64,000 nt of DNA, from NCBI RefSeq assembly GCF_000003815.2, contig NC_049984.1, positions 13,510,661 through 13,574,660 on the forward strand, given 5' to 3'. The position numbers and the translations under genes are program-made. The notes under the pieces were generated by a model. That model did not search any database and was not told the origin of the DNA. It was given only the letters and a program-made list of their open reading frames with translations. Shown piece by piece: positions 1,520-60,800 of this stretch. This DNA is from Branchiostoma floridae (taxonomy: Eukaryota > Chordata > Leptocardii > Amphioxiformes > Branchiostomatidae). The stretch's first letter is position 1. Every line of letters starts with the position of its first letter.

Positions 1520-12803
<11,284 letters not shown>

Positions 12804-15497: not shown

Positions 15498-18400
15498 TCA
15501 GTTCTTGCTTGCTCTCTTTGCGGTTTTGGGCCTTTTTCGTTTGGTTGTCCCATTGGTCGACTGTTTGTCACGGGTCGTCGCCGTCAGGTCGGTCAGCGAA
15601 TGTCTCCTTTGCGACGAGAAACTCTTGCCCGGCATAACTTTGTCCCGTCCCCCTGGCGTGCGTTTTCCCGTGGGGGGTCGTGCAGCAGTAGTTTTGTCAT
15701 GTTTGTGCGCATCGTTTGATTTCGATTTGCTACTAACATACGTGTGCTCGCGGATTGGCTTGCTGGGAACAGACGACTGCCCTCTGCTGAAGGTTATATT
15801 GCTGGATTTCGGTCGACCTAGGACGGTATTGTTCTCGTTTATTACAGCAGCGTTCGACCGTTGCTTAGAATGGCAAGGTGTACAAGACCTGGGTCTCGCA
15901 AGCCGAGACGGCGACCCTTTCTTGTCCTCCTCCTCTCTGGGCGGCTGACGTTGGTGGCTGTCGTACCCGTGTTCTTTACAAGTCCCCGTGCAGTAGCGTT
16001 GACGGCAGTAGATACATACCCGCCCGGACGGCACCCTTTTCTGCGTGCAGTTTCCCGCACACATCGGCTGTACACAGTCGGGGTGGCACGGTTTGCCCTG
16101 CCCGGCTTTAGGTTTCGCTAACGCCGCAGAACGTTCCCTACTAGCGCCCGATCTAGACGCGGCGCGGGAAGAAGGACGCTGACTTTTTTCCATCTCCCAC
16201 TGGATCGTCTGCAGCTGGAGCCGCTCGAACTCCATCAGCCTGTCAATGATGTCCAGGTACTGTCCTTTCGGTTTGACTCTGACGGCGTCTTTCCAGTTCT
16301 TGTTTGACAGCAGGGCCAGTTCCTGCAGGTCCCACTCATTGAACGGTTTAGGCAAGAAGTCCGGAAACGGAAAGACGTCTGACTCGCCTTCTTTGCTATC
16401 ATCGCTATCGTAATCATCAAAGAATCGTTCGATGTCCTCCAGTTCCACACTATCTGGCTTGAGCTGTAAATCTGGAATGTCTTTAGGAATCGTGCCTTCT
16501 TCGCCCTGCTGTCTTTCTGTCTCAGAATAGTCTGTATCGTAGTCGGAGCTGTTATCAGCACTAGAGGCAGTCAGAGCCTCTTTCAGTAGAGGTTTGTTAC
16601 TGCCTGCTGTAGCCTGGATAGCGAGGTCGGCTATCCGTTCGTTGTAATCGCCTGGATAGACCAGGGAGTGGCCGCTGCCCGGGCGAGGGGACCATGACGA
16701 TGAGGGCGGACGGAAGGGCACTCGTCTTCTCGATGCGTAGGGTGAGCGGGTAGGGCGTGGCAATCTGGAACACAAGGTACAGTTATTACCTGAAGAACAT
16801 TCGTAACACACATCATATTTAAAGAAACAAACTGTTCTCCAACTAATGTGGCGTGGACGCGCCAACCTTCTCTCAACGGGAAAGGGGCGATATCGACTTC
16901 CAACAACCTTTGACCCATTGCACGTGCATAAAGCCATGTATCCAGAGAAATTGGTAGATACCAAGATAGAGGACTAAGCTATTCAGTCGAAAATTCCCAT
17001 CTTTTTCAGTTTCTTCATAATACGTATACGTGACGAATTATGAAGCGCTACACACCGAGACCCGTAGTGCTATCTACTCTTAGACTAGCTACTAGTTAAC
17101 CTCATAGCAACAGGCAAAGTTTCAATCCAAAGTACCAGCCACACCGACAGAGTGGGAACCCTCGCCAGTAAAGTGGACTATCTTTCTGCACACCGTTGTA
17201 CCTTTCATCGCCACCGGTACCTTTATTTCCTCCTGCGGAAACAAGACTTACATTTTTGTAACCTGCAGTTCGACGGGAGGAGGATGGAACTTTATCTCGA
17301 CCGGCATCCTCAAATTCATTCTGAATTGTAACGGAGTGTGGGAGTGAGTGTGAGAAGGGTCTGGTCACATTCGTCGTAAGGTCGTCGTGCGATTGCATAC
17401 CAAAGGTATTATTGGGATAGTTGTATGGTTGTGCAGTTGTTACTATAACGATAGACGTATGGTAGTGGATTCTGCCTGAGACATCCGACCGTTTCCAAAA
17501 TCATAGTCAGTTGCTTGAGTAATTTCTGTTTGGCGTATTCTATTTCATGGATGCCTAATCTTCATCGACGTACCGAGAATATCATTGTCGGCCGTAGATT
17601 TAGTCACAGTCTGCTTGAAAAATCCCGAGACAGCAACATCGTACGACGACCGACGACGAATGTGCCCACGCCGTGAAGAGTTGAGTCAATTAAAACTAAA
17701 TGTTATTTAATGTAAGGGTTTGTGTCGGAAGCTTGCCAGTTCAGTAATTTCAGATTGGCACTAGCCATGCATCACCACGCTTCACCAAATGGCGGCAACC
17801 ATGAATTCCTAATCATCGCCCCGACTGCTAGCTTCATCGGTTCCTTAATTTCCTGCTTAATCAAACAGGTTAACCACTGTGGCCTTATCGTCGTCTGTTC
17901 GCCTGATGGCTGACGTAATTCGTGAGCACAATAACAATTTCATGCTTTCACTATCCACGATCCCATAAATCTAGCCTAGAATCCAGTCTTGTTAGCTTTG
18001 GTGTGCTTCAGAAGGTCGCTCGGGAGCGGACCAAAGCTGACAAGGCTGGGTTACAGGCTACCATAGACCAAGCTACGGTAATTTTCTCATCTAAATACAA
18101 ATGTACAAGCACACACACGTGCATCCCATTTTGTCTAGTACCAGTAGCATATTAGTAGATAGGACCAAATGCTCTAGAAATGTATGTCAGTTACAATCAG
18201 TTGACGAAACGTAGATCGAGAAACACGTAAATTTCAAGATGAAGTAAAACACGTGCAATTGTAAATACAACGACCCGAAAACCTAAGATTGGTGGTCAGG
18301 AACGGGATTCAGAATGGGGAAAGAAAAAGGGTTAAACCTTAACAACATTTTGTCTTAAGATTCAGTGTATTTAGTAATACGACGCTGGCTAATAAGAAAA

Positions 18401-21400
18401 GACTGGTCCTGGGTTTCGAGTCCCTAGCAGGCCCCAATGTTGTGCCCTTGGCCGTTTCTCAACTTGACGGTCAAGACCTAATACCTAGCTTTGGTTAGTG
18501 ACATCCTCTTAGATGGCAGGTAAAGCCGGAGGTCCTTTGGTTGATGAGAGTCACATTTCGAGCAACGTGATGTTTAAGAATCTACCAAATATATCGAAAA
18601 GACGATGGTACATCCAGGCCAGGGGTATATACCGGTGTGAGTTGAAGAAACCTATCGGTCTGGTCATACACAGTTTTGTACTCTAATAACACAGTCCTAG
18701 TATAAAACTAGTTTAACGTATACGTATTTGCACCGTTATAGCTTGTAGTCTTGTAAAGAGCCAGGCGTACAGTGAATTTAGAAATACATAGCCTACAGTC
18801 ATATCCGATACGGACAGCCAAGCCTAAGACCTTCCAATCCCGGTACTACTGTATGTTTTTTCTGTACGTTATCGGCTATCAGTGCTTACCGGTTACTTTT
18901 CTCCTGCTTCTGGAAGGGAGGCGACACCACCATCATGGCGTCGTGGACGTGCTCGAAGGCGTCGGGCACCACCTCGGGTCTGTTCGGCGTCGGCGTGCGG
19001 AAGGCCCGCATGCTGAGACTGGAGGGTGTCGGCGGCCGGCCCAGGCGGTGATGGTCTGCACCTCGGGAACTCTGTCGTTCAATTAGAGACAGACGATCAA
19101 CGACTACACACTACACAGTCTGTAAACATTCTCACGGTAATGAAATGCATGGTCAAAATTCTCATTTAACAACCCAGTGAACATGCAGAGATGTTAACAG
19201 TACGCACGGCTTCAACATGAATGTTTCCCCGAAAAAGCTTCTATTAAAGATAAGGCATGGGGCACCGTAATGTATATGGAATTTGTAACTTCCGTTGTGT
19301 ATACACAAGTTAACTTGGGACTCAAATGCACATGGATACTAGTAAACTTGGTACATAATCACTTTGGAGAGCCAGCGATTTATAATTATGAAAAGTTAGG
19401 CCCGGTAGCAGTGGTGCTATGTCAGTCCAGAAGAAAATTTGATCACCCCAAACGACGTCGTGAATTTGAATAAGCTCGTCGTCCTTAACTCTGCTATTGG
19501 GTTCATATATATGAAGTATACAGAGGATACACACAACCGAGTCAACAGCGAGAATCAAATATTGTTGTGCCTTCATTTCAAAGGAAGTAAACTGTAACTC
19601 GTAGTGGGAGAGTTCGAAGGGAAAGTTTATGTTACGGTTATTTACTCAGGGCAAACTTTCACTAATACCGATCGATCACGAGTATTGAACGCACTCAGGA
19701 GAGGAAAGAATGTTATATAACTGGTACACCGTGGTTGTCAACACTGCGTTAATAAAACATCGTGGTCATATTTGTTGACACGTTTCAACCGTCATATTGC
19801 TTTGGTCATGTTCGCTCACCAAACTTGTATCAGTTACGGCACAATCAGCACGGGAAGGTTAAAACTAACCATGAAATTGAACGACCACGCGGAAAAATAC
19901 GTGTTCCACCAAGGAGGTTAAAAACCTTGGTTACACTGCAACTTTTGATACTCGATTCTTAGTCATTTGTCACGCTTGCTACTAAAGGGTTCGGTCGCAT
20001 TAGTCGGATGATCGTCGTACAACCGCAAACAGTGGACCTTCATGACGATGTGATCGTGCATGTGTATTGTACATGTTTCAGCTGACTTGGATCCTTATCG
20101 GCGGTTGGTTCTTTCAAAGTCTACAGCCACATTCTACGACATCAAAACTGTACGACAATCTACCACGAATATAACCACATCGTAACGTACCTACAAGTTG
20201 ATTAACTCATCGTCTGAGACAAAACTCCAATTTTAAGCGCGAGTTACGTTTGTAGGCTATCATCTGTATGCGATATGTTTACGCCGCATGGTTATACTGT
20301 CATGTAGTTAACCACCCTACCTTTGTGCTGCTAGCATTTCCCATCTCTGTCCATGATGTTATGACCATTTGTCTTCTGTCACACACACCATGTATGAATT
20401 ATAAATGAAAGGTACTTTATTCTCCATAGCGGAGACGCGGAAGTCTGTTTTTGTTAGAAATTGATTACCCTTAATGTTATGGCTAGTCAGTATAGAATGT
20501 AGTATTTTTTATCTGCAACAACAGTAGCTTATTAGGCTGTATGCAAGACTGTTTCCAGAAAAAAAGCTCCTCGGCTCCAGGGCCAACATGTCTCCAAGGT
20601 AATTTCAACACCCCCCCATCTGAGTCAAACCCCGAGATTCCGAGGAGGGGGTGAAATTATTCATAACCTGTGTAGGCTTTGGAAATAGTCTGACATCCAA
20701 GCTATGGTGTATGATAAAGTAGTTTTAGCATTACTATGATGACGCAAGTCTCAAGTCCCACAGGGAAAATGACACTGCAGACATTCAATCATGAGTATGC
20801 CGTGACTTGTAACACCGACAATCTATCTTTCGGGGACCTCTGGCTTATGCCCCTGTCGCACGGCAAGCAAATCGATCAGTCGACGAGGACATTTTTGCCA
20901 CTTATAATTATACGCCCTGTCTTCTGTCGATCATCGCGCGATTTCTAGAGATCGCAGGTTCCCAAGTGCCATTCACTATGAAAGGGTAGATTTTCAGATG
21001 AAAAATACTCTCGACTTTCTGACGATTCCAAAATACAGCAACCTTCTGATGATTAACAAATATTGCAGAAGCTCATCCACTGTGTGACAGGGTCGTTAGG
21101 ACTAGCGACTGAATGTTCAAAGTATAAGGCGAGGTCCATAAGTATAATGTGCGATATTCCGCAATAGACATTCTCTACAAGTGGTTGGGAAGACAAATAG
21201 GAATACTACAAGTTTAATAACACGGGAAACGTAAAAGATTAACTTGAATGTGTTTAGTGGTCTATTTTAGGACTGCCGTATTTGTAGATCTGGACCTGTT
21301 TTGATGAAACATACATGTGAAACTAAGATCCTTATGGCAGTATCTCACTATAGCTGCGGCACGCTGACGGCCCCGCGTGACATACGCGCTCAACGAATTT

Positions 21401-24400: not shown

Positions 24401-27312
24401 ATACCTTTAAGAGTTCCTATTTCTGAAGTCGGTTTTGTTTTTCGGATAAATTTACCGCGGCCGAGTGTTGCATTATGCCCATTTCTGGGTTCAGTGAAAA
24501 TGTATAACGGCTACGACAAGTATGTGTTCTCTAGACCGAGAGGCTATTGTTCCTAAATTCCGAAGTGGTCACGGTATGGGCTGTAGTTTGGGCAGTGAAA
24601 AATTGAAAAAGACGACCTTTATAGATCTAATCAACTCAACCTTGCGCAAATGTCGCTGCCACAAGGGGTATCAAGAAACTTCCTTCTTTGTTGTAGGTAA
24701 TCATATTTTGTAGCAAGCGAATTGCATGTTACACAACGGTTAACCCACTAAGATCTATTTCAGAGCCCTATAATAAGGTGACGCGAGGTCACACAAAGCC
24801 CTATCTCTCCTCAATATTTCACAAGTCATAAAAATGCCAACATACGTTTGCAACCATAATACATGCTTTGTCCTCTGATATGCTGTTCAATGTCCCTATC
24901 AGAACAGATTTATGTACTGTTGGTACAGCTACATGATTATTGGCACACTTTTCATATTAACATTAGTCTAAATATGCTTTGAAAAGTATTGGTAGTGTAC
25001 GGTCCCGGCCACATATGTCGTACGATCATTGCACGATCGCGAACTGTATGAGAACATTCTCGGGATAGTCGTGAAGGTGTCTGCAAAATTCGTTTGTCTT
25101 TTTACGGGAAGGGCTGCCTTGGACCACTGTCGGTGGTCGGTTCTGTCACCGCCTGCTTGAAAATTCTACGGCATCAAAATCGTACGACGGATGTGAGCGC
25201 GCCCTATGAGTTATTGTGTTTGTATATCTTTGTCACGGATCATGTGCGTCATTTATGGGGGCTGTTACAGTATATATTGAACACATAGCAGTAAATAAAT
25301 GTAACAGAAGAGGGGTGTGTCTTGTTGACCCAGTCCACATACCAAATCCGTCGTCGTCGGAGTCGTGATCAGGGGGAGACGTTTTTCTCGTCCACGCCTG
25401 CCATGACAGGGTGTTCTGAAAGAAAACACATTGCCATTTACAATATGGAAAAGTGCTAGCGACAAAGTGTATGCAAATGTTATGACATTGATGTTATCGG
25501 TTACTAAGGAAAAGGTTATCAGCGACGGGATTTTTTGAGGGACTGTCGATTAAGTCATTGGTTACTTTGGTATTTACGTCAAGGATGTTCTTTGAACTAC
25601 AGAACCATGTAGACAAAGGGAAGGCAAACTGATCCGTATTTTCAGCAAATAGGAGCCAAAGTCAATTTTCCACTTCGAAATTCTAAACGCTGTAGAAAAT
25701 TGCCTGCGTAATCAACTTATTTGACAATCAGAGCGGAATATTTGGGGGTGCGCCGTTCTGTTACACACGGTTAAACGGCCCTGTCATCCTGACAAGATCG
25801 ATTAGCTGATCAACATGTTCACAAACGATACTTGCGATGTTCTCTCGATCATCGCGCGATTTTTTAGGGATCGACCTATGTTCGTACGTCACAGAGCCCC
25901 ATTGAATACGACAGGGCAGATTTTCAAGCGAAAAATACGTTCGACCCTTTGTCGATATCAGGCGACCTTTTGGCGATCTACAAATACGACAAAAGCTCGT
26001 CGACTGTGTGGCAGGGACATCAGGTGTTAGACGTTCTACATGTTCAAGCCATATCGTAACAGACAACAAAAAGCAATCTTCGTGTTTCACTGACAGTATC
26101 TTAGCTCGATAATGGAGTAACCCGATACACACGGCGAAAGACTTCTGTGTATTTAGGTATACAAACTTAAGAGGGGACTTAGGTCCTTCTTTAAGGTTTG
26201 TATTTACTTGTCCTCACAAGACTACTTTTCTGGACGGAAACATGTCCACAGTAGGGTGGAGGATACATTGTATCTGCCAATGGAGTCCTGTGGGTCCGTT
26301 GTACTGGTCAGCTACTTACAGACAAATCTTACACCCCATTTTGGCCAATTTTGTCTGCATGGATTCATCTAGCTCCGAGACTTATTTGAGACAAATTATT
26401 TTAATTTTGTGTTATCCTTCCTCGGTGGTAGTAAAATGATAACCAATGAATGGATAGAATACACCGCGCACTCATGGAACACAAAACACCTGTTCCACAA
26501 CCATATATATTTAATATACAAGAGGGGTCGGGGTTTCTTGGAAGGATCAATTTTATACAATCCAGAGATTTTAATGATAATCGTACCGGACAGACAGGTT
26601 TTGGCATAACCGTCTGCGTATGAAATCTCCCAGCGCTACGCCCCCCTAACTGACCCCGATCAGCCGATGTCAGACCCCACACCGTACAGAAACCGTACAT
26701 GTACCCATAGTTTCTACCACGCTGGCCATAAGGATGTATTTATCAGGGGAATTTGGCCACCATAGGCAAGGATTTGCTTGCGGAAGCTAGGGGATCTGAC
26801 CGACTTCCCAAATGACTGGCTCCTGCCCAATGATTTACTCATTTTGCCGAAATCTACTCTCCATAAACCCTATTAAAGGAAGGCCGGGAGGAGGCTACCG
26901 ACTTCCGTACCTGGTCCAGGTCCAACGTAGGCCGTGCCGCTTGCCGGGCACTCCGCTGCTCTAACCGGGCGGGAGGCTTCCAGTCCGCCGCCGCCGACTT
27001 GGGCCGCTTGACGTGCCTGTACACAGAATTAGGAAGGGACATTTTCACGACTGTCGTGTGAAATCCTCACAAAGCTCATCGTGACCTTTTAGCTCAATAG
27101 AAAAAGAATGGCTCGAAAGACAAATGGATAATAAATGGGAAAACAGTGTCTCGATATAAATCATTTACACACCCCTGAAAGCCTTTCTTGTTGGCCCTCG
27201 GATGAGGGGCAGGCCAGTTTTGACTGTAAACTGTGGTCAGCAGGTCAGTCGACTCCGGCCACTGTGTGTCCACCGCCATTTTCGACTTGCGGCGAGGATC
27301 AGGTGTCGGCAT
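15498..27312 (-). CDS. FAM217A/B-like protein with cysteine-rich module
   Basis: The function of the FAM217 family is unknown; human FAM217A is mainly testis-expressed. Proposed exons (gene order): 27173-27312, 26911-27016, 23072-23233, 18890-19071, 15498-16764. Phases close at 1857 nt (618 aa). The family signature is clear at residues about 328-386: FPFPDFLPKPFNEWDL, then NWKDAV, then RLMEFERLQLQTIQ, matching the FPYPDFLPPPF..WK..V..LERLQ core of human FAM217A. Following it is a segment with eight cysteines in 37 residues (423-459) that I do not recall from vertebrate members. The tail is Ser/Lys/Arg-rich and ends in a possible nuclear localisation signal (KRKRPKTAKR). The first two exons are less certain than the last; a separate 73-bp candidate exon at 25343-25415 would break the frame. 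The start used is the first Met, 27312; a second in-frame Met follows about 11 codons later. Confidence 0.75.
16765..18889 (-). other. Last intron of the FAM217-like gene
   Basis: No further coding exon is needed here: the exons on both sides join in phase 2. A minus-strand open frame at 17102-17398 lacks defensible splice sites. The only element recognised is the SINE-like copy at 18385-18700. Confidence 0.55.
18385..18700 (+). repeat. tRNA-derived SINE-like repeat, copy 4
   Basis: This copy carries a B-box-like ggtttcgagtccctagcagg. It is followed by the family body (caatgttgtgcccttgg, gacatcctcttagatggcag, gtcatacacagttttgtact) in the same order and orientation as the copy at 4592. It lies in the last intron of the FAM217-like gene. 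Confidence 0.55.
19072..23071 (-). other. FAM217-like gene intron, repeat relics
   Basis: A 4 kb intron. The exons around it join in phase 0, so no missing exon is implied. It holds a diverged dispersed repeat (20922-21102) and a 20-bp tandem duplication near 22570-22610 (cagacaatgctcaagtagga twice). I saw no coding exon. Confidence 0.5.
20922..21102 (+). repeat. Dispersed repeat, copy A (pair with 25840-26018)
   Basis: It starts with cgatcatcgcgcgattt and ends near actgtgtgacagggtcg. The same order of motifs (gcagattttc, gaaaaatac, cgact.t.tgacgat, aaatac.gca, gaagctc.tc.actgtgtg.cagg) occurs at 25840-26018 in the same orientation. The copies are strongly diverged. No coding capacity was seen. 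Confidence 0.55.
25343..25415 (-). other. Candidate cassette or poison exon in the FAM217-like gene
   Basis: The segment is bounded by a good acceptor (tttctttcag, just above 25415) and a good donor (TTTG|gtatgtgg, below 25343). It is 73 bp long. Read in the phase of the upstream exon it encodes NTLSWQAWTRKTSPPDHDSD and a further DDGF, which looks protein-like. It then ends in phase 1, so joining to the next exon at 23233 gives G|AT GTT TAG, a stop. Without it the flanking exons join in frame. It could be a poison exon, could have an undetected partner exon, or could be chance. Confidence 0.35.
25840..26018 (+). repeat. Dispersed repeat, copy B (pair with 20922-21102)
   Basis: It begins cgatcatcgcgcgatttttt and shares a collinear series of motifs with copy A in the same orientation. 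It lies in an intron of the FAM217-like gene. Related phrases (tcgtacgac, cgatcgcg) recur elsewhere between 17.5 and 26 kb, suggesting an abundant old family. Confidence 0.55.
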
Positions 27313-29814: not shown

Positions 29815-30240
29815 CAGCAGGACTTCTAGTAGTGTGTGCAGTTGTGTAGAAATTACTGGTGGCTTGTATGGCCTCCATAGCTTGTGGTATTTGTCAGATG
29901 AAGATCCAGTAGCATGAGTAGTTGTGAAGGATGTTACTGCTGGTAGTTTGTGGTACTTGTCAGGTGCAGATCTAGTAGCGGGTGTAGTTGTGTAGGATGT
30001 TGCTGGTGGCTTGTAGGACCACCATAGCTTGTTGTCAGATGAAGATCTAGTAGCATGTGTAGTTGGGTAGTGGGTAGGATATCACTAGTGGCTTGTAGGA
30101 CCTCCATAGCTTGTTGTCAGATGAAGATCTAGTAGCGTGTGTAGTTGTGTAGGATATTACTGGTGGTAGCTTATGGTACTTGTCAGGAGCAGACCTAGTA
30201 ACGTGTGTAGTTGTGTAGGATGTTGCTGGTGGCCTGCATG
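29815..30240. repeat. Minisatellite of about 80-bp units overlapping the ZNF335 C-terminus
   Basis: About six degenerate copies of a unit containing agatctagtagcgtgtgtag, ttgtgtaggatgttgctgg and tggcttgtaggacctccata. The last copy enters the final coding exon of ZNF335, so codons for [10 protein letters not shown] and the stop are minisatellite sequence. Further copies lie in the 3' UTR. Confidence 0.8.
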
Positions 30241-33200
30241 ACTTCTGTGCTGGTGTCATACTCCTGCGTAGTGTACTGCTGTGTCAGGGCGGCCTGTTGT
30301 TGCTGCAGGGATCCATCCTGCTGCAGCTGCTGCAGGGACTGCTGCGTCAGCCCTGCAGAACAAGGAAAGAAATCATCAGGTTTGTTTCTAATGAAACAAA
30401 AGCTCAAAGATCTCAATATTAATGGGTACTCATTGCCACCAAACTGTAGGGTGGTGGACAGGGAGTAGTGCCCTTGCCCTTGAGGAGCTGGGATCTCTTC
30501 TCCCATTCACATATGCAATTACAAAATTAAGAGACCACCCCCTCCACACTTAGAGTACCTCTACCCCCCACTGTGTCAGAGTCTTCAGCTAATTGAAGTT
30601 GTACACAAAACCAGAAGAAGAGATTCTCATTCGTCTCATAGAGTTTTCATATGTCTTGTTCAACTATATATGTCATTCATTTATGCAAATAAGTCTGCAT
30701 TGATCACTTTCTGTCACTATGGTAAATGTGACTAGCATATGGTAAAAATTTTCAAAAAGACAGACAGATAAACAGACCAAAAACAATACAATGACCCTAT
30801 GAGATGGACTGTCATGTCTGATTTACAACTTGTTCTAACACATTTGAACTGTACTTCCTGTCACTGACAGTGTACTCAAATAAAAATGGACTGACACAGA
30901 AAGAAACAAACACATGCAGTAAAAGTAAAACATAGCCTGCATATACAAAGAGTTGCTAAAGGCAAAAAAGAAAATATGAAGGATAACTTCTATAAGAAAG
31001 GATAACTTCCAGAAGAAAGATGACCATGGAATATATTTTGGACAGCATGAGCAGCCTTAAGCACAGTAAATTGAAAGAAGGAAGCTGCACAATGACCACA
31101 TGTTAGAACTGCTTGTTAGAGTGCAGCCCACCTTGTTGCTGGTAGTGTTGTTGGTGGACCTGTTGGTGCATGGTGGTGGTGGTGGGCTGCTGGGCCAGGC
31201 TGGTGCTGGGGGTGGTCACTATGTGCTGCTGACCCATCAGCTGCTGCAGACCCTCACCTGGACAAAACAGACAGTACACAGTATGTTAGAATACAAATGA
31301 TGAGAATGACTGGTATGAAGTAGGGCTGGGTACGGGTACACTGTACTGGTACAAAACCGTTTTTTTCTTATTGGACCGGTCCGGAAAAACCAGACCTGAA
31401 AAAATCAGGTGGACAGGATGTTGGACCTATTAGAAAATGTACAGATTACTTGATCAGGCATTCACATTTGGCACTTACCGGTCGAAGAAAATAACAAGAG
31501 CGAAGTAGAGTAAAGTTTAGAGTCATTTCTACCAAGGTTTACATAGATTTCCTCAACCTTCACAATTTATTTTTCCGGCAAACTATATCATTGTTTCAAT
31601 TGACTTATTGAGGCATGCCAAGCTGTCCGTACCTTCCTGTGGATGAGATGTAGTCAGGATGACATGGTGGATGATCTCAGCTGTACTGACCACCTCCTGG
31701 TGCCCCAGGGTCATGGCATCCTGAGTGGCCATACTAGGAGTGGACATGGCCTGCTGCGTGGTGTACACTACCTGGTGGGGCAGGGATGTGCTGGCCTCGG
31801 AGATGGCCTACAGGAACCGTGCAGTAACAATATGATATTCAACATATACAGTGTACAGATGTCAGGAAACAAAATGATAGTCAGGACCAATATGAACAAG
31901 CTCTAGGTACCCCAAAAATGAGTCATCAATCCATGCTCCAATCACGCATAATCACCTCCTGTACATCTACAATATTGAACAAGAGCCACACAAGACTTCT
32001 AATTCTCCAAGTACATGTACACCATTTCCACCTTACATCCCGGCGGGACATAACACTGCAATACTCACATGCACACCAAGACAAACAAACACACCAACTG
32101 ACTACAATGCTTCTGTTTTAAATTTAATGGCGGTAAACACATGAAAATTTAATAAGAACACATTTGATAAGATTGTACCTGCAGCAAGCTTGCTTCCTGT
32201 ATAGATGAGTGAGCGGGCTGGGGAGACTGCTGAGGCTTCTGTGTGTTGTGTATCCTCTCCATGTGGAACTTCAGGTGGCAGTTACGATTGAAACGCTGCC
32301 CGCAGGCTTCACAGGTGAAGGGCTTCTCGTTCGTGTGCGTCATCTGGTGCCGCTTCAGGTCCTTCTTGTTCTTGGAGGCAAAGGAACACTGGTCGCACTT
32401 GTGGGGCCGCAGCGCAGAATGCTCCTGCATGTGCTCCTTCAGAGCCAGCCAGTCCATGGTGGAGAAATCACAGTCCACGCACTTGAACCCCTGTCCCCCG
32501 CTGTGGGCCTTCTTGTGTATTTCCAGTTCGCTGCGTCCACTGAACGACAACGAGCACTGCTTGCAGGTGAACTTCTTTGGTGTGGACGACCCCTGACCAT
32601 CCTCCTCGCTGACATACTCAGTGTACTCGTGCCCTCCCTGTACGGCGTACTGTTGGGAGATGGGGACTCCCATGGCATACTGGGTGCCCTTGTCTGTGGA
32701 GGAGTCCCCGGCTGTCACCACCACTGTGTGGGACACTTCTGTGGGATCCCCCGCATACATCTGCTGCTGGGACACCACGGGACCTTCCGCGTAGGGGTTC
32801 AGTGCCACGTGTGTCACCTCCATCTCCCTCGCCCCCGCCACAGTGGCAGGCTGCAGTCTGTACTCGTAGTTGCCGATGTTCTCGCTAGGATCCATGTGGA
32901 TGGTGACCACTTTCCTGGTCTCGCCCTCCCCCTCTTGTATGGGAAGCTGTATGGCGCTGATGTTGGAGTCTCGAGCAGTGCTCATGTTTAGGAGCAGATC
33001 GAGGGCGGACTCGGCCACACTCTCTGCTGATTCTGCTCCTGTAGCTTCATAGATAGTGGTTGTGCCAGGCTGAGACAGCTTGGCTGTGGCCACCTCTGTG
33101 CCTGCACCGGTATCCTCCGTGATCTCCACGATGGTGGTCTCGCCTCCGACCACCTGCAGGGCGGTGACAGCGTCCTGCACGGCCTGCGCCTGGCCGTGCA

Positions 33201-36200
33201 CCTGGATCTGCTCGTATTGCTGCTGCTGGATCTGCTGCAGTTGCTGTTGTTGTTGCTGCAGGAGCTGCTGTTCCTGCTGCTGCTGTAGCTGCTGCTGTTG
33301 CTGCTGCTGCATGAGCTGGTGCTGCTGCTGTCTCTCCTGCTGCACCTGTGCACAGAGAGTATCATCAATGTTCCACCTTTCCTATAAACAACTCATCCAC
33401 AACTCAACATTCACCTTTTCACCAAAAGACATCACAGCTTCCAAAGTGTTTGAGGATGCATGCTGCACCATAAAGGATCTGCCAAGAGCTATGGGGATGG
33501 AGAAGACTGGAGGAGAAGGGCCATGAATGTCAATATGAAACCTTCATGACAAGACGATGAGTGTCGGTAATTATGGATTGGTGCTTACTACACACAACAC
33601 CCAAAATTGCAGCTCCAGAACAAGCTGCTAGAGGGCCTAACCTGCATCAGATTTTCCTAAAATCAAAAGCTATCAGAACCCAAGATGTCAAAACTATTTA
33701 ACTGTAGTACGGTAGAAATCTACCAAAGGGCCCAAACTCTAGCTCATTATTTCCATAACCTACCAACACACCAAATATAATATAAAACCATCCATTTAGG
33801 CATTCTTGCTTTACCTTAATGACAAACAAGCATGCAGAAAAATGCTGCCCAAAATCTAAAACTTCTTGATGAAGGTCAAAAAGAAAATGAAGTGCTGCTA
33901 ACCAATTGCTGCAACTGTTTATGTAGTTCAATGCCCAGTCTCTTCTTGGGTACGTCCTTCCCGAACAGTTCGAAGTATTTCTCCGGGTGTTGTCCCTTGA
34001 CGTGTAACTTGAGGTTGCGCTGGTGCTGAGTGGAGAACTGGCAGATGGAACACTGGAAGGGTTTGGCACCGGTGTGCTTGGCCTCATGAGCAACAAGAAA
34101 TTCTTCCTTTGAAGAGGCATATTTACCTGAAAAACACAAACTAATTTCATTACATTGCATGGGACACTGCAAGGGTACCAGCTACTCAACATGATAAAAA
34201 AATTGCAAATGGATCCTACCTAAAATTATACAATTTCTTTGAATATTTTGTGGTTTTAAATTTTTATGTAGCCTACATGTAGAGTTCAGACAGCAAGTCA
34301 TCAGCATGTAAGTGTATAAGGTCATGTTTGCATCTATATAAGGCTAATATCCCAAATACAGGTTTATATAATTGTGTCCAAAAAGAGTCAATATGCAACA
34401 GCTGTTACTCTGAAGCAATGACGATGAAAGAGACTCAGCAGCTATAACTTAGAAGAGGTTTGGATATCAGACTATGTACAGTATGTGTATTACGTTCTAG
34501 GTATGTGCTACACTCACTCTCACTCACTCTAGCAGTAGCAACAAGAAGAAGCTTGACTACTTGACCAGTACTACTAGTTGACTTAATAGAATAAAAGTAG
34601 CATACAAAGATCACCATGCAGATTTAGATACCCTAAAACACAGCCACAAATACAAATGATGAACATCTTACAGAAGCTGCATTTGAAAGGCTTCTCATCA
34701 TTGTGGGCCATTTGGTGGTTCAACAGCACCCTCTTGTTGTCACAGGTGAAATTGCAGAGTTCACAGACATACTTTCCGTCCACACGGGCATGGATGTGGG
34801 TCAACAAGTGCATCTTGAAGGTATATCTGAGATGGACAGTGAGATGTTATATGGTTCAACTGAGAATGGAGACAACATACTAGTAATTCATAAATCCAAC
34901 AGCTGTGCAAAGCCGTGCCCATGGCCTATACACGTCAATCTTATCTTGAGGAGGCTCTGCTAAACGGGCTGAGATTTCCACTTTTGTCGGTGTGACCTCT
35001 AACCAGATGTTAGCAGGCTTTTAGCCAGGCATGCATCAACCCGTCAACGCGTCATCTGGGCGACTGGACGCACTTTTCTTAGAATAACAAAAAATTTGAT
35101 GCCCCTGGACGCCCTTACACTGAGGAGAAAATCGTCTGACAAGCATGAAATTTTGATTGACCAGGGATGCTACCAGGTCATCTGTGGTCACAGTCTTCTA
35201 CTGTGACCTCTGGAACAGTATTTTTGCCTCTTGGGATACCTAAGAATGCACTTTTTAAACTTAAAATCATCAATGGAAGGTGGATGCATCCAGACCCACC
35301 CTACAATAGTCACTTACCGTGACTCACCAATAAGTTTGGACTTCCTATTATAAAATCCTAGCTAAAAGCCTGGATGTTAGCCAATCAGAGAATTACCTAA
35401 ATGTTCAATTTTCTGATTGGCTGACAGGACGCCAAGCTCACAAAAGTGGAAATTGCAGCCCAGTTTAGCAGAGCCTCCCCAGGTTATATTGTATAGGCCA
35501 CAGGTAAGCCTCTGCATAGGCGAACGATAGCTCTAACAATGTTGCATGGACAGACCTTTTCTTAAAGGACTTGCCACATTTGTCGCACATGTGGGGCTTC
35601 TCGGCGCTGTGGGTCTTCATGTGCTGCGTCAGCCTCTTCTGCATGGTGTAGGTCCTGCCACACACGGGGCAGGTGTAGGACGACAGCTTGGGCTGCTGGT
35701 TGTGCTCCCTCACGTGCTCCATGTACGGCTTCTTCAGGGTGAACACCATGGTGCAGATCTCGCAGGTGTACGAGTTACGGTCCGCCTTCCGCCGGTGGGT
35801 GTCAATGTGACTCTTCAGGTGGATGTCACGCTTGAAGGCCTTTCCGCACTGTTCACAGATAAACGGACGGTCTGGGACAGGAGAAAGTGGAGATGAACAT
35901 CAGGACAACAACAACATCATACGGCAGCATTTATCGGTACCTACTAAAAGAAAAATCTCATCACTTAGTTTTTCTACTGATTTACCAACACATCCGTACC
36001 TGTGGTGTGTGACGACTGGTGGCGGGTGACGTCCTTCTTGTACACACTGCTGTAGTTACACTTGTCACACTTGTAGGGCTTGGACTGCCCGTTGTGGTGG
36101 AACAGATGTTCCTTTAGTGAGGACCATCTGGGAGGAGATACATTGTATGTATCAGACACATTCATAAACATACGTACAAGTGCAGAAATAAACTTTCAAT

Positions 36201-45547: not shown

Positions 45548-48500
45548 TTAGTTCTTGGCAGACCACATGCGCAGATTGGTGAGAGCCTTGTTCAGCTGGG
45601 CTATCCACTGGATTCGCTCTTCCTTGGTGTCTGCTGATATCCAGTGCCTAAGAAACAGCAAGACAGGCTTTTAATAAAGACATTTGACTGAGATATGCTC
45701 ACTGTGCTACATGTTTGTTGAAATTTGACAGATAAATGTGTAAAAAAAGACACATACTACATCTTAATGCTACTTGCCTAACTGTGTTAAACAACTAATG
45801 AGTTTCATTGACAAACAAATCCTAAGCCTAACAACAATGCCAGAGTAATCTTACTTGGTGGTGACTGTCTTGTTCTTCCAGTCCACAGAGTCCACAATGG
45901 TGTCCTTGTCATCATCCTTCACTGGTCGGGAACACAGAATCTCGATGGTGTTGGGACGGGCACACCACTCTCTGCAACAAACCAAACCAAGTAATCAATA
46001 TGGCTATAAGTTAACTATAAGTCTCTTGTTCATATTTATGAATGTAATGTGGAACTTTACATGAAAGCATCATAAGCCCTAATCCCCACTCACCTAGACA
46101 CAGTGGTGATGTTCTTGGTGATGCACTGGCCCACGTCGATGACTCCGATAGGGTCCTTCCTCCTCTCATCGTCAGGGTAGGTCCAGTACGCCAACCGCCA
46201 GTTGGACAGGACACACCAGCGACGGTGCCAGGAACCAAAGCCACCCACATCCTGAAACAAGAAGGTTACATTAGACAAGCAAGATTACAAGACCTGAGCT
46301 ATGGAGGAAACAGACAGAGTCTTTGACATCCATCTAACTACCACGTCCTGACATGTACACCGAAAACATACACGATTGAATGAGTAATAGTCTTTTTGAC
46401 ATGTTCAAAGGAATTAGACACTGACCTGAAACATGGTGAGGAAGCCCCTCTCCTCCACACCACTGTCCATGTGGCAGTGGATGCGCACCTGCACATGACC
46501 CTGCAGGGGGGACAGGAACGGAACCTTGTCCAGGGTGAACTGGGTCTTCCGCACGTCACACAGCCTGATGTGCGTCTCCCCCATCAGGACAAAGTTGCTG
46601 TTACGAACAGTGCTGGGACCCCCCAGGCTTCGCAGCAGGGGACTCATGGAGTTGTCTTTCCCCATGATGTTGGTGAAGATCTTCTTTGGTGCCAGGTTCT
46701 TCAGTTTGGGGGAGGGCATGCCAAGCAGACTCCCCAGGGCAGATTTCTGTTGGTTGTCAGGCTTGAGACGTTTCATACGCATGTTATACACCTCAATCTT
46801 GACATCAAAGTTACTGTTGATGTTGTTGAGGACGATGTGATTGGTGAACCACATGCTGTCCCCGGCGATCTTGTCGGCCGTACTGAGCATCATGGTGGGG
46901 ATGACCTTCTCTGGGCCGTTGTAGATCAGGCAGAAGAAGTAGTCATCTCCTGGGACATTCCCTTCCTTCAGGGAGAAGAGGTACTCGCCCTTCAGAGGGA
47001 GCTTGATGTCAGTGATGGTCAGGGTCCCCCGGCATGGCTTGGCTCCTTCCATAGACTCCTCCCTCTCACCGTCAGGGCCCAGGTTCTTCAGACGCTGGCA
47101 GACAGGAAAACAAATCCACATTAATCCACAAATACTGATTGCACATTGTATTTTAAACAAAGGTGATAAACAGTTTAGCCGCTTGATGGATAGAGTAAGC
47201 ATGAAAGCAAGTTGTTCATCTGATTTCCATTTATAAGACAGTAGGACATTTGCAACAAATACCATCACTGATGGTGGTCATGAGATCAGTAAAATTGGAC
47301 AACTAAACACATTCAAGTATAAGCCTTGATACCTGTGTCTCTGCTAACAGAGCTAGACGCCGCTGAGTAGCAATCAGCAGCAACCTTTCGGCCTCCACCT
47401 CCTCTGCTGAGCCCTTCCCGTGTTCAGCATCCCGGCAGACGTTCAGCGCCTGGCTCGCCTGGTGGACGATGGTCTGCTGCGAGGCCACCTGACCAGGGGA
47501 GACACTAACAGGTCAGTACAAGTACTTAATGGCAAAGAATATAAACAAAAAAACTTCTTGTTTCTTCATATTCATGAATGCCCCTGATCTGCTGTACTCA
47601 CCTGCTCCATGAGATGTTTGACCTTGTCCTTGATGGGTACCCGGCGGGCGGGCCTGGCTGGGACCTCTGGACTAGGAGCTGGGTCATCATCATCGCTAGT
47701 GCTGATGGTGGGCTTGTGGTTCCGCACTATGGTTTTGACAGCATTGGGCCTGGAACACAGGGCAAGCAAGGGTTACAGGCTATCTGTCAGTGTCCTTGAA
47801 AGCAATGTAAAAATCTTGATAAAATACATGTATTTACAGAACTAAGCCCATCTTCTCTTATTCAACCGTCATGTAAGATGTAGTTCTCAATCTCAATCTA
47901 GTTCTACTTATTATATACTGCATATTGTATCTACTGAGGTAGTAGCTTTGTATTATTTGATAATGTTGTTTCTTGAAATGCTTTACTACACAACACAAGG
48001 TTATAAAACTGCCTGAATACAAACCTTGACTTGGACTTGCGCATGGACCGATAACACTCCAAACTATACATGAGCGGCCGTTCTTCTACCTCCTCCACAG
48101 AAGACGGCACCACACTCTCTGCTGAACTGGACTTGGGAATCTTGGGAGTTGTTGTCTCAGCAGCAAAGGCCACCTTCTGCAAGGATGGGAAAAATTGCTA
48201 TATTTACTCAGTCATTGGAAAGTCAGTTGAATCCACAATTCTTTGCTGGCTGTAATTTGCTTCGAACCTCATGTGTTGTTGTTGAAATGGTGATTTGAGA
48301 AAACATATCAATAAAGACAAATTATGTCCATCTAACCTGCTCGGAACCCCTAATAGTAATAAGTTGCTGGTTGCAAATACCAAAAAAATAAAGGGCAAAA
48401 GCCAAATTGTGTGAACACACATCAATGTATACCATAGTTATATGTTTGAGGGAACCAACCTTTGCTTTCTCCTGTCTGCTGGGTTCCTGTTTGCGAGGTG

Positions 48501-51500
48501 GGGTGGGGTTCTTTACTGGGGGAGAGTCTATCACCTCATCCAGCAGGTCATCTAAGGCTTTTGTCGTGTTCTTCTCTTCATCTTCTTCGTCATCTTCATC
48601 ATCATCATCATCATCCTATAGAGGTCAGCCAAGGCAGCATGAATATTATGAATTCTACAATGGGTGCTACATTCATTGATTCAACTCACATTTTGTTGCA
48701 CTGTCTGCCTGCAAATGATATGAATCTAATGTTACACACAATAAAGAGACCTGCATTGTGACATAGTAACAAATATTTACCTCCTCGACCTCTGCACTTG
48801 GCACCTCTGGTTCTTTTGCCTTGTCACTGCTTTCTTCAACACCTACAGAAACAATCATTGAACAATGTTGTTAAATAGAAAGCTTCAATGTTCTATGTCA
48901 ACAAATGCCATGAAATTTGAATTAGGTAGACTAAAAATGGAGAGGTGCATTCCTATTCAAATTGCTAATAAGTCATTTTTAATGTCATAAAACTACATGT
49001 CTACCTGACATCTCCTCTTCCTCTGAATCCTCCTCACTCTCAGGTTCAGGTTCCTGTTGTCTCTGTTTTGGTTTGTCCCACGGTGTGAAACAGGGAGCTG
49101 CTGACTCAGTCTTAGGCTCAGCTGGGGTCTCCTGCAAAACAACAGGCAACATCATGTTTACATGGACTGGCTTGGAGCTACTGATGGTGTTCACACGACG
49201 TAAACAAAAAGTGCAGATACAGACAGAAATGGTTCAGCACAAAACTTCAAAAGGTTCAGTACAACAACTGCTACCTCATCTTTCTTGACTCCCCATTTCT
49301 CCCAGCGGTTCTTGAGCTGGGCCAGTTCTGCCGCTCGTTCCTTCTTCATCTGTGCTGCCGGGTCGTTTTCCCGCTGCCTGTTCTGGGCGGCCTCTCTCAG
49401 GCGGTCATGCACGGACTTGGTGGCTGGAGCAGTCTTCTTGGCAGCAGTTCCTGTGGTGTGTTTAAACGCTGTCATTAACTTACATCTGTATGCTCAGTCT
49501 GTTCTCCTCAATAACCTGTAGGTTGTTCTACTGAACTCATCACTGTGACAATGATTTATACATGTTTTGTTTTTGACTGCATCCATTCAGTACAATTCTA
49601 GAAAGTAAGGTGTGATAAATTTTCTGTCCCAGTATGTTGTCTAGCACAAAAGGTGGCTCCACCCAAAATACCTACCCTGCTCAGCGGGCGTGGTCGTAGT
49701 CTCTCTCACAGGCTCCTTGGCAGGAGCCCTGTCTCCAAACCTGCCATTCCCAGCAGGCTTTGCAGGCTGTTTTAGCTTCTCTTTTTGCACCAGCCAAGTC
49801 TTTTTAGCTTCCCTATCATGGGAAAATGGAATGGTTGCTGTGTTAGGTTTATACATAAAACGAGTTTCATTCAAAACAGGGTTCTCCCCAGAGAGTGGAA
49901 TAAGGGAGGCCCTCCACTATACTCTCAGCCAGCTCCACTATACTATTTTTCAAATTTAGTGTGTTTCTTCCCTATTTTCTTTGTTAGTTTTGCTAAGATT
50001 AATGACAATTCACAGATTTTTGTACCAAGTGGCATCACTTTTCCAGTCAGCATTGTCTGCAAAAACTTGTGAATGAGCAATGATCAAAACAATAGTAGTT
50101 TTGCCACAACAAAGGAATAACAACAGTATATTATACTTGTAGTATTTGACACCCTCTGTCATTGCAAAATGAACCCATTTTCATGAAAGTGCAGCGCGTT
50201 GGTGCGGGTTATTTTTGCCAGCCCCTCCACTATACTAAAAAATTCTGGGGAGAACCCTGCAAAACATGAACTAGAAAAGATGACGAGCACACATGGACCA
50301 ATAAAATCTTGTCTATATGAACAAATGGTCACTATTCACATTCTAGGTGTTGGTGCCAATGGGAAAAATTAACTAAGCCTAAAGGGACCCCCAAATGTGG
50401 TCGCCAGTCACACTGCCCAGGTGGTCCTTATGAAGAGGTGGTTACTTGGGCAGGGTTTGACTGTATTGTCATCAACTAATTCAAATCAGCTCAACTATTG
50501 CCATATAGTACACACCTTTTAGCCTTCTCCTCTTGAGCTGCAAACAGCTGTGCAGCAAACCTGACAGAAACTGGCTTCTCCTCCACAACCTCACCATTGG
50601 TCTCCTTACTGGGGGGCTGGGAGGTCTGAAAAGGACAAGAAAAAATTTAACGTGAAAACAAACATGAAGATGACAAACCTTTCAGTTGATTAAATACACG
50701 TACTAGTATATAAATCAAGGGACATTTGCTGAGTGGTACTGACCTTGGTCCGAGGCTTTGTCTCCTTGACAGTTCTTGTTGGAGTTTGTTTCGGAGTTTG
50801 TTTGTCAAACAGCGCAGCTCTGCCACTTACAAAGGGGCTTGAGGGAGCAGGCTTGTCACTAGCAGGGGCCGGCGTGGGCTTCTTGTTTTCAGTAGTCTTC
50901 ACAGTCGGTTTGTGAACAGGCTTTGACTCACTAACGCTCAGACGGGGCTCCTTTCAAGGAAAAAAATTCTGGTTACAAAACAGATGCTTGGCTCACTACA
51001 GCTGTAGATATATATATAGAGAGAAATAATTCACTACAACTAGTACAATTAAAATGAGTACCAAGATTGTGTTGAAAGGCTTGAAAGTTGTACATAATGT
51101 ACATGGTATGGAGACCATGATTACCTTGCCTCCCCAGAATCCACCACCTGTGTTGGCTGATTTCTTCTGTGGTTCCTCCTTGGGGATGGAGGGAGCCTGG
51201 CGTTTCTGGACACTCGACTGTGCGGGAGCATTAGGGGCCTGCTTTTTCTTCTCCTCCTGAAAAATTTGAAAAGATATTCGTGTTGAGTAAACATATTGCT
51301 ACTGAGAGAGACTTTCATGGTCTGAAATTTTATCACTCATATACTCTTTCTTTTGCTTTCTCTTACCCTGTGCAGAGCACCAAATCCCTGGTTGTGGGTG
51401 TCATCCTCCCAGCTACTCTGCTTTGCAGCCAGGTGAGCAAAGCGCCCCCTGCTGGAGGAGGATCCCGATGCAGGCTGCGCTCTTGGCTTGGGTGTGGGGG

Positions 51501-54500
51501 AGAGTGGCTGATCCTCAGAACTGGATACAGCTGGTGCCTCCTGCTCTGCTGATGCCTCACCTGAAGGGGCAAAACTAAGAATCAGAACAGAACACACAGT
51601 AGTTATAAACCTTCTCTATGAAATATTAGTTTTCACTACTACAGTTTATTTTAGAATAACTTTGTCAGAAAAATTGTGTTATTGTACAGGTTTGGTCCCA
51701 ACCCTACCAAATGGGACAACTCCATCAATGACATGCCATTTATAAGTTCTTCATTAAAGCAGATTTATGATTTGCTGTGCAGATATTCTTGGACATTTCA
51801 GCCTGCAGTGATAACCACTTTAGTATTGGTCCACTGACAATAGAACTTTTGTCCATATTCCATGTGTATAACTACATACACTCAAGACAAGCAGTTTGCA
51901 GTAAGCTTTTCTAGTCTACGAGAAGCAGTGACAGGGTGAAAAGTTGCTACAAGCACTGCTACATGACATAGCAAGTCAAGATAGAAGTGCCACCTCGCTC
52001 CCATTTCCTGCGCTGACTGGCTAGTTCCTGCATACGAGAACGCAGTCCTGCCGTACCGTGGCCTGTGGATTTACCAAGCAGCTTCTCCACTGCAACAGTC
52101 TTAGTTTCTGTCTGGTCAGTGGTGTGTGCCCGAGGCTTCTTATTGGGTGAGTCTGAGGGAAAATTGAAGAGCAAATCAGTCTATCTGCAATTCTGCATAC
52201 AACTGAAAAGGTGGTTGTGGTTACTGGTACCTCAGTTTTTTTACTGATATGTAGAATCAATAATGCTGTATGATCAGTGGTTAGACATTTATGAGAAAAT
52301 GCTGCTGAGGAATAAAAACATGATACAGCTAACAGCCACTCATATCAATTACAGTAATACAGAATTTAGAAACATTCAATCATATGTAAAAACTTTTATA
52401 CAAATTTACTGCTTTCTTCTGGTATTTGTTTTTGAAGAATAGCACATATGTCGGAAAGTGATTATGTATAGATTTCAACTATTGTTAGAACATGGCCACT
52501 ACCCCTTAGCCAATGGGAGCCCTTTAATTAAGGTAGCCAGGAGGTATGTCTGAGCAAGATTTCTTTCCGAAAAATAACCATCAATGTTAGTAGATAGGTA
52601 CTTCTATTTTTATAAAAATAGAACACTTTGCCATCAAATGTTGTTTTTGTTGGCCAAATTTCAAGGTCAAAGTAGCTGTCTCAAATTACACAAAAATTTC
52701 AAACTCTTCACAGCTTTTCAAACTTGACATCATTGGATAGGTCTTAGTGAAAGAAATAGAATGGTTTTTATTGCGAAAAAATCGGACATACCGTTAGAGA
52801 GTTATGGCCATCAACGGCCTAAAAATTACGCCATAATTTCTCCGGGTCAGCTAATTAAATATGCAAGATTACAATATCTCCACAGTCATACAAGATACAA
52901 GGAAAAAACTTGCTATACTGGGGTTTTGTAACATGCTGAATTTAACTATGGCCATGAAATTTACATATCTAATTCATAAATGATAAATAATCCTGAATAA
53001 TTGAGTTCCAGGGGTAATAAAATATGAGTCAGCTAATTAAATATGCAAAAACACCATATTTTCCCTCTCCTTGAAGATACAAGAACAAAACTTGGTATAC
53101 AGAGGTTTTAGCACATGCCGAATACAAATCTGACCTCAAAATATCATTTTGATTTTTTTATGATCTATAAAAATGGATTGTGTCACTACTACCACCACAA
53201 TGTGATTATCGGAGCGACACGCCCCAAAAACTGTTCATCAAAATTAGTCAAAATGGATCTTATTTTGAAATATACCCTGTAAGGTAGAATGTCTCGCGCA
53301 GCCGCCTCGAAAGGGTGCTATTTAGTGCTCCCAATTGCTGGTAGCATAAGGGGTAATAAAAATTCGAGGAAAAATATTCATAAAAAATCAGCATTACACG
53401 ATATGACGAAATCCACGCACAGATCTTTTTAAATGACCATTATATACATTACTGTAAAGTATCAACAACAATCGTCGAATTACAAGCGGGGCAAAACACT
53501 TTTCTGGCATTTTTTCCCCAAATGGGCGTGGCCATATAGCTCTCTATGACATCATCATGACGTCATGCTAATTTGCATAAATCACCTTTAGGCAATAAGG
53601 TACTTCCTAAAAAAACTAAAGACCCATGCATTATCCAAACATGATATTTTCATGACACCAAAAACACCCCCAAACGCCTCAGTTACCACTCTTTATGGCC
53701 TTAATTACTGTGTTTATATCTCCATAGTGCAGAAAAGTGTGATACTATGAACTCATTTCCATAAAATAGGACCACACTTTTTCATAGTACAACACGACTT
53801 TTACTGCACCTCCTGTCAGCTCACACACTGTGCTAATTGCCTAGGGGATTAAAGAGGATTAAAACACAAAGACCCAATGTCATAAAAATCAGGTGTAAAA
53901 GAAACCCCATTGTGGGCAGAGCTACCCTTATTCCCAATAGAAGGATTCGTCCCAATGTTCTATATATTACGTAGGATTACAGTAGTACAGGAAGTGGCCA
54001 CTAGGCAGTTGACGAAATAAAAAGGTGTGAATAGAGTTTGTGGTATGCTAGAAATTTTTGGTTGCTTTTAAAGAACAAACTGCTATATGCATTGATTCCA
54101 TGCCAAGGATAGAGGAAGGAAGTAGGACAAAGTGACACTGACAGGTCCTGGTGTGATCTGAGTGAGCTCATGTCCTGCCATATGTTTACATTGTCTAACA
54201 GTTCTTACATTCCTCCTGTAACTGACACCTCACTCATTACTGTGAAACGTAGATAGGTTGAGGCAAGATATAAATTATATATTTTTTTTTCTGACACACT
54301 GTGAAAGTACAATTACAGTAGGTCAAAAATCACACCATAACTTGCTCACCAGTAGAAACTAAATCTGAAGTAAATCTGAATATGCACATAATCAATGGCT
54401 ACTTTGGAAGAAATCTCAGAATGTTAAACTCAAACGAAGCCAGTGGATCCAAATTTGGTGTGTCAGTTACCAGTAAACCACATGTTGACCCTGAGATGCC

Positions 54501-57885: not shown

Positions 57886-60800
57886 CTAATCCGCACTTTG
57901 CCTGTCTTGTCTTTCTCTCATTTCTTTTTCTCTCTCAACTGCACAGCGTGCAACCATACGGTCAAAGCTCCCCAAATAGAAAAGGGCAATCACTCGGAAC
58001 AATCCCANNNNNNNNNNNNNNNNNNNNNNNNNNNNNNNNNNNNNNNNNNNNNNNNNNNNNNNNNNNNNNNNNNNNNNNNNNNNNNNNNNNNNNNNNNNNN
58101 NNNNNNNNNNNNNNNNNNNNNNNNNNNNNNNNNNNNNNNNNNNNNNNNNNNNNNNNNNNNNNNNNNNNNNNNNNNNNNNNNNNNNNNNNNNNNNNNNNNN
58201 NNNNNNNNNNNNNNNNNNNNNNNNNNNNNNNNNNNNNNNNNNNNNNNNNNNNNNNNNNNNNNNNNNNNNNNNNNNNNNNNNNNNNNNNNNNNNNNNNNNN
58301 NNNNNNNNNNNNNNNNNNNNNNNNNNNNNNNNNNNNNNNNNNNNNNNNNNNNNNNNNNNNNNNNNNNNNNNNNNNNNNNNNNNNNNNNNNNNNNNNNNNN
58401 NNNNNNNNNNNNNNNNNNNNNNNNNNNNNNNNNNNNNNNNNNNNNNNNNNNNNNNNNNNNNNNNNNNNNNNNNNNNNNNNNNNNNNNNNNNNNNNNNNNN
58501 NNNNNNNNNNNNNNNNNNNNNNNGCATCCTGGAGGATCCTCTTTGCTACATAGTCAGGCTGGTAGAGTCCCGCTGTCTCTGAGATCAACTTCGTCTCCTT
58601 GGGCTGCAAGTGATAAGCAGATGTCAATCAAGACAGACCTATGGGGTATGACAGACCTTTAGAGACCCTAATGATAATAAATTACTTTAACTTGGCAGAT
58701 ATATGCAAAATATGGATGAGATTGTGTTTTCATAATCTCAAAGCAGATGTTTGGGGAGGCTAAACAGTTTTCCCAAGGATATTGGTCTTTTATCCTTGCA
58801 GCCTGTTTCTGTGTCAAACCACAGAGAAGACAGGAGTAGAACAGTCAAGTAACATCTCTGTATCCTAATGCAGGACACAACATTGTAACCAACCAATGGC
58901 TTGTCACCCACCTTAAATGTTTGTTCTGTCTGGAAGCCAGGTGTGTCAGTGTCAGGAGGGAAGGTGATAGTCAGGTAGATGTTGTATGGTTTCACCTCCA
59001 TCTGCAATGCCTCAGCAAACCCCCTGAGGGCAAACTTTGATGCAGAGTAGGCTGTGAAGCCGTACAGCCCAATCTGGCCAGCCTGGGAGGACACCAGGAC
59101 AATCCGCCCCCTGCGTCTGTACTTCATGGTAGAGATGACAGCCCTGGTGGCATGGATAGTCCCATAGTAGTTCACTTCCATTTGTTGCTAATGGAAATTG
59201 ACAACAATGGATTGTTATGTAAACCAAGGTGAAAATATCTACTGTGGTTTACATTTTTCTTGTGTTAGTTATTCTTTACATTCATCACCCCATGACCCCT
59301 CATCATCCATCTTTAACATGGATATTCATTACAAAATGCCATCAAAACTACACTATAATACAGACAGCTTTTAACAACTCAGGCAATTAATGACCATGAC
59401 AGACAATCTGCTATTTTAAATCCTACCTTGAATTCGTCAACAGGAATATCTTCAAATCTGCTGGCAAAAGATGTTCCAGCACAGTTCACCAGCATGTCTA
59501 CTGGGCCCAGCTTCTCTTGTGCCTGAAAAAACACAAAGTACAATGTTCAAAGAGCTCCAGACTACAGAAAACCTATGATTTTACAGAAAATATTACATGT
59601 ATTTAGTTTCATCAATATGATAACATCATAACAGCAGATGCTAATAACAGTAGCAACTGAAGCTGCAATCTGGAACCGTGCAGTCTATCTTCATGCATGA
59701 CCTCGTCTAAGCAGCACTTGATCACTACATGGTTTTTATATTGGTACTTAAGTTAAACAGGATGAGCTAAGGTTTTGATGTGAGTGTAAGGGTCATTCTA
59801 TTCATATTATCTTGTACCTGTTGTACTGCCTTCTCCACTGCACTGAAGTCTTTGGAAATGTCCACAGAAATGCATAGCACCTTCTGTTTAATATAAGAAC
59901 ACAAACTTTTAGTCAGAACATTGTTAAGAACAACATAGAAAAGTACATTCAACAAGGTCCTGCATACTCCAATGATTTGTAGCAAAGCTNNNNNNNNNNN
60001 NNNNNNNNNNNNNNNNNNNNNNNNNNNNNNNNNNNNNNNNNNNNNNNNNNNNNNNNNNNNNNNNNNNNNNNNNNNNNNNNNNNNNNNNNNNNNNNNNNNN
60101 NNNNNNNNNNNNNNNNNNNNNNNNNNNNNNNNNNNNNNNNNNNNNNNNNNNNNNNNNNNNNNNNNNNNNNNNNNNNNNNNNNNNNNNNNNNNNNNNNNNN
60201 NNNNNNNNNNNNNNNNNNNNNNNNNNNNNNNNNNNNNNNNNNNNNNNNNNNNNNNNNNNNNNNNNNNNNNNNNNNNNNNNNNNNNNNNNNNNNNNNNNNN
60301 NNNNNNNNNNNNNNNNNNNNNNNNNNCAGCTTATGATACTATCTTAGCCCACGGTAGGATCTGCTTGGAGATTAAGTAATAAAAGCATAATGCCTGAAGT
60401 AATGCCTTCTTTTACTGTGAACCAATTGGTCCTTGGTGTGAACCATATGCATGTGAGAGTCAGGCCTCTCCTGCAGTCAAATAAATGTTTCAGCACTCAC
60501 TTCGTTTCTTGCTATAATGGTGACAAGGGCGCCCTGCTTGACAGCTTCCACAGCGACGGCCTTTCCTATCCCACTGGAACCACCAGTCACCTTGTGTAAA
60601 CAAAAATTGTGATTATAACACTAAATCGAATATTCTCACAAAGCTGATGTACAAAAATCAGGGTCCATGACTCCATAGATATAAGATTTATTATAACAAA
60701 TACTTGAAATATACTTATGTAATGGAAACTGATTATAGATTGCACGAGGAGTAATGAGATCCACGTGTACCAGTTAAATCATATGGGCATCCCAAAATTA

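Follow-up and report, generated by a model that had tools for sequence, protein, structure and literature searches.

Here, we analyze a 64,000-nucleotide stretch of the genome of the lancelet Branchiostoma floridae (the window), in which a minus-strand gene of the FAM217 family carries a compact module of eight cysteines (Table 1). The 423-residue translation of its last exon, an open frame of the minus strand ending at 15498 (P0001), scores 94.6 bits with the Pfam FAM217 profile (PF15344), whose cut-off is 27. When the organism's own assembly (513 Mb, 431 contigs) was searched for the family, a single FAM217 locus was returned, with 98.8 bits; this count, like that of the module given below, is a lower bound. 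The FAM217 profile found no match in 14 control genomes of unstated species. Judged by its sequence, the protein encoded at 15498..16764 is a member of the FAM217 family, and the profile scores uphold the sequence-only reading of this DNA, which had called it FAM217-like. Two apparent links of P0001 to porphobilinogen synthase are taken to be due to chance: the best match among PDB sequences, located in the core, has an E of 0.43, and the NCBIfam match reaches 12.2 bits against a cut-off of 507.

A tentative GT-AG gene model with matching phases joins three exons (27042-26911, 19071-18890 and 16764-15498) and yields a protein of 526 residues; additional exons may exist. The stretches around the two upstream exons have no Pfam match at E 0.1. 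In this model the module occupies residues 331-367, rather than 423-459 as in the sequence-only reading, whose residue numbering implies an N-terminus longer than that of the tentative model.

Table 1. Features of the lancelet FAM217 locus, in window coordinates
Feature	Position	Strand	Basis
First coding exon (tentative), from ATG to donor, without Cys	26911..27042	minus	phase and GT donor fit
Tentative middle exon, without Cys	18890..19071	minus	AG/GT borders, phase fit
Last coding exon: core, module and tail, stop included	15498..16764	minus	open frame; acceptor TTCCAG, matching phase
FAM217 conserved core, PF15344 profile positions 48-123	16146..16373	minus	core-only fragment, 84.2 bits
Eight-Cys module, C-x3-C-x4-C-x3-C-x10-C-x2-C-x4-C-x3-C	15978..16088	minus	same open frame as the FAM217 core
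Predicted beta-hairpin, two strands, Cys4 to Cys5-Cys6	16005..16049	minus	both AlphaFold2 models, low confidence
Extra pair CTPCH (C-x2-C-H), 31 residues past the module	15870..15884	minus	sequence
Basic C-terminal end KRKRPKTAKRASKN, possibly NLS-like (by eye)	15501..15542	minus	sequence

The window also contains pieces of the PRP4 kinase gene, PRPF4B. One minus-strand exon (2268-2627) matches this kinase with a best E of 9.5e-45 among PDB sequences and, by eye, further kinase and RS/basic-rich pieces of PRPF4B extend up to 8694 on the same strand. Piece 2840-3073 scores 23.7 bits with Pkinase, below the cut-off of 31.7, and piece 7305-8102 has no Pfam match. On inspection of the list of stop-free stretches, no other gene was noticed between PRPF4B and FAM217. 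Human PRPF4B and FAM217A share one row, 6p25.2, in a table of PMC4593004. The presence of PRPF4B nearby, as in human, supports the view that the lancelet gene is orthologous to FAM217A or to its pre-duplication ancestor. Elsewhere in the window lie anillin gene pieces on the minus strand (46417-47277 and 51340-51615; Anillin 95.1 bits, Anillin_N 28.9 bits with a cut-off of 27), an exon of a short-chain dehydrogenase (58741-59187, minus) and one of a peptide deformylase (61453-62055, plus), a long open frame that resembles a reverse transcriptase (LINE-type by eye), listed just before 40900, and runs of N at 58008-58523, 59990-60326 and 62196-62295, which are either gaps in the assembly or stretches that were withheld.

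Translation reproduces exactly both the coordinates and the eight-cysteine spacing that had been read from the sequence. In P0001 the module spans residues 228-264, with cysteines at positions 228, 232, 237, 241, 252, 255, 260 and 264; two more follow at 296 and 299, and there are none elsewhere in P0001. All 10 cysteines of the 526-residue model fall within 72 residues (331-402), eight of them within 37. The module had been described as lying directly after the core. It does lie downstream in the same frame, but a basic Ser/Ala linker intervenes, and the module begins about 20 residues past the end of the best-matching part of the core. Its surroundings are of low complexity, rich in Ser, Lys and Arg, and the tail as a whole is basic, with 49 Lys and Arg versus 15 Asp and Glu in 223 residues. 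The CTPCH pair may add another metal-binding pair, though its occurrence is probably due to chance.

The eight cysteines form four C-x(2,3)-C pairs, and the inner x4 and x3 spacers are identical in the two halves. The halves had been taken for two repeats, a reading that rests on the cysteine spacing; only 2 of 7 non-Cys positions are identical. This level of identity was reached in 14,097 of 200,000 random draws, common enough that tandem duplication of the halves is not established. The clustering of the cysteines is seldom matched by random placement within the protein. When the 10 cysteines of P0001 were placed at random, 2 of 200,000 trials packed at least eight of them into 37 residues; for the 526-residue model, 0 of 200,000 did. 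A control on the whole window weakens this argument. Cysteine density by itself is not rare in raw frames, since five stretches with at least eight Cys, the module included, are found among the six-frame stop-free stretches of the whole window (25,547 windows of 37 residues). Poly-Cys frames of the plus strand, at 33233-33343 (27 Cys in 37 residues) and 30235-30345 (14 in 37), account for two of these stretches and look like repeat-derived, non-coding sequence. The notable point about the module is that its dense cysteines lie inside an exon supported by Pfam.

What the lancelet protein has in common with the family of human FAM217A and FAM217B is the core, which scores above cut-off; the eight-cysteine module is present in the lancelet protein and has no counterpart in the Pfam model. 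The core alone scores 84.2 bits with PF15344, and the core together with the module region 86.7 bits. Replacing all 10 Cys with Ser raises the latter score to 88.7 bits, indicating that the Pfam model gives cysteines there no reward. With most of the module deleted and the downstream Cys pair changed to Ser, the score is 85.8 bits, and the module alone has no FAM217 match in Pfam at E 10. As far as these profile comparisons go, membership in FAM217 rests on the core and is unaffected by the absence of the module from the profile. The eight-cysteine module is not known from human FAM217A or FAM217B.

No Pfam family matches the module above its cut-off, and there is no NCBIfam match. At E 10, the sole Pfam match of a 57-residue stretch with the module is the IFT122 zinc ribbon (PF25144), with an E of 0.7. 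The second half of the module alone reaches E 0.1 and 12.9 bits with this profile, against a cut-off of 27 and over just 12 residues. A first-half fragment and an 82-residue fragment with all 10 Cys have no Pfam match, so the hint of a zinc ribbon is not stable over fragments. Against PDB sequences, the module has a single match at E 10, to a spider toxin, whose E of 0.64 is at chance level. No second copy of the module was found in the lancelet's own genome at E 10, and the module is known from one sequence, that of the FAM217 locus described here. In searches of viral contigs with P0001, 2 stretches fit a pattern, and in searches of GTDB genomes with the module, 121 did so; none was confirmed in either case. 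These collections consist of viruses and prokaryotes, so the null results are uninformative about conservation among animals. The sequence-only reading had singled out the module as a candidate for an undescribed one, and the Pfam, NCBIfam and PDB searches are in line with this. We conclude that the lancelet protein contains a real cysteine module, undescribed in the libraries searched, within the known family FAM217.

How might such a module work? The four C-x(2,3)-C pairs, set in a tail that is basic and of low complexity, are consistent with a two-zinc module, and a binuclear zinc site is the most plausible reading of the cysteine spacing. We consider it fairly probable that the low-complexity C-terminal half of this FAM217 protein holds a putative Zn(2)Cys(8) module, whose zinc, fold and docking we infer as follows. 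The eight thiolates of the four pairs would bind two zinc ions, and zinc binding would fold an island of roughly 37 residues. Adjoining the FAM217 core, this island would most likely provide a surface on which a partner protein docks; given the basic tail, a nucleic acid may be considered as an alternative target. The two ions could share the cysteines sequentially (Cys 1-4 and 5-8), in a nested manner (Cys 3-6 as a ribbon, with Cys 1, 2, 7 and 8 outside) or as a cross-brace. AlphaFold2, run on single sequences, gave two models, of 69 and 53 residues, both of low confidence (mean pLDDT 51.0 and 51.2; pTM 0.28 and 0.29). Each model shows the hairpin listed in Table 1, with strands at P0001 residues 241-245 and 251-255, and no other strands or helices. 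Located between the Cys3-4 and Cys5-6 pairs, this predicted hairpin hints, at low confidence, at a zinc-ribbon-like, nested arrangement. The confidence is too low for a choice among nested, sequential and cross-brace pairing. Counting against the zinc module are this low confidence, the lack of profile matches above cut-off, the dense Cys stretches in non-coding frames of the window and the slight gain in the family score when Ser replaces Cys, by which the family, as represented in Pfam, has no need of these cysteines.

Several known zinc-binding folds bear a partial likeness to the module. Any resemblance to the IFT122-type ribbon would lie in the inner C-x3-C-x10-C-x2-C, with the predicted hairpin (pLDDT 51) in between; the module differs in its low score with PF25144 and in the four further cysteines that lie outside the ribbon. 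The MYND zinc finger (PF01753) has a C6HC pattern, with x5 where the module has x4. The C-x2-C-x4-C-x3-C of the module, whose third Cys is preceded by Tyr, is similar to the middle part of MYND, but the final Cys is missing and there is no Pfam match to MYND at E 10. The CCHC zinc knuckle, with the consensus C-x2-C-x4-H-x4-C, is similar in length and likewise has paired cysteines. Here too there is no Pfam match at E 10; the module lacks the His ligand, and its last spacer is 3.

A more ambitious form of the zinc hypothesis is that the module represents a binuclear zinc fold not described before, which was present in the ancestral FAM217 protein, once provided partner docking and was lost in vertebrates. 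We regard this scenario as doubtful. A similarly unlikely view dispenses with a defined metal site altogether and treats the module as a Cys-rich insertion, specific to the lineage and under weak constraint, within a disordered tail. The low-complexity surroundings rich in Ser, Lys and Arg, the lack of cysteines at this place in the Pfam FAM217 model, the failure to find a second copy in the genome at E 10 and the lack of a confident AlphaFold2 fold would all fit such an insertion. However, paired cysteines, a repeated spacing and the near-absence of Cys elsewhere in the protein would be unusual for neutral sequence.

Cysteines spaced in this way could also hold one or more iron-sulfur sites. 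Among the 2[4Fe-4S] ferredoxin subtypes in rows of PMC11430716 are CX2CX4CX3CX18CX2CX2CX3C and CX3CX4CX3CX20CX2CX2CX3C, and each four-cysteine half of the lancelet module is spaced like one half of some of these subtypes. In the rows compared, however, the gap is at least 18 and the second half reads CX2CX2CX3C, whereas the module has a gap of 10 and CX2CX4CX3C. Moreover, the module matches no ferredoxin profile at E 10, and we judge iron-sulfur coordination to be very unlikely. The sequence-only reading had also offered a disulfide-stabilised knot, for which one may cite the even number of cysteines (eight) and the spider toxin, the only PDB match at E 10 and one at chance level. An annotation reported in PMC11406918 puts FAM217A at the nucleus, against such a knot. 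The knot is made unlikely by the lack of an evident signal peptide at the tentative N-terminus (by eye) and by the basic tail, and we give it no more than a slim chance. Least probable of all is an artefact of the gene model in which the module is intronic or untranslated: the model is tentative, but a single uninterrupted frame runs from core to module to stop, and the GC content at the three codon positions of the last exon (0.54/0.51/0.59, versus 0.419 for the whole window) is further, weak evidence against it.

Finally, we consider what a zinc module would mean for FAM217 proteins, whose older names are C6orf146 and C20orf177. In the parts of the literature covered by a limited look, we found no assigned biochemical function for these proteins. 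No paper combining FAM217 with amphioxus and testis was found, and none of the literature matches listed connects FAM217B with a zinc finger or with nuclear localization. PMC11406918 describes testis expression of FAM217A and its interaction with SPAG6, citing Yap et al. 2022 for the SPAG6 complex, and FAM217A appears in PMC7436996 among the genes from a screen for male reproductive tract-specific genes. If the module is indeed a folded metal site, it would be a first testable handle on the FAM217 family, and comparison with vertebrates would reveal whether it was lost there or gained in the lancelet lineage.
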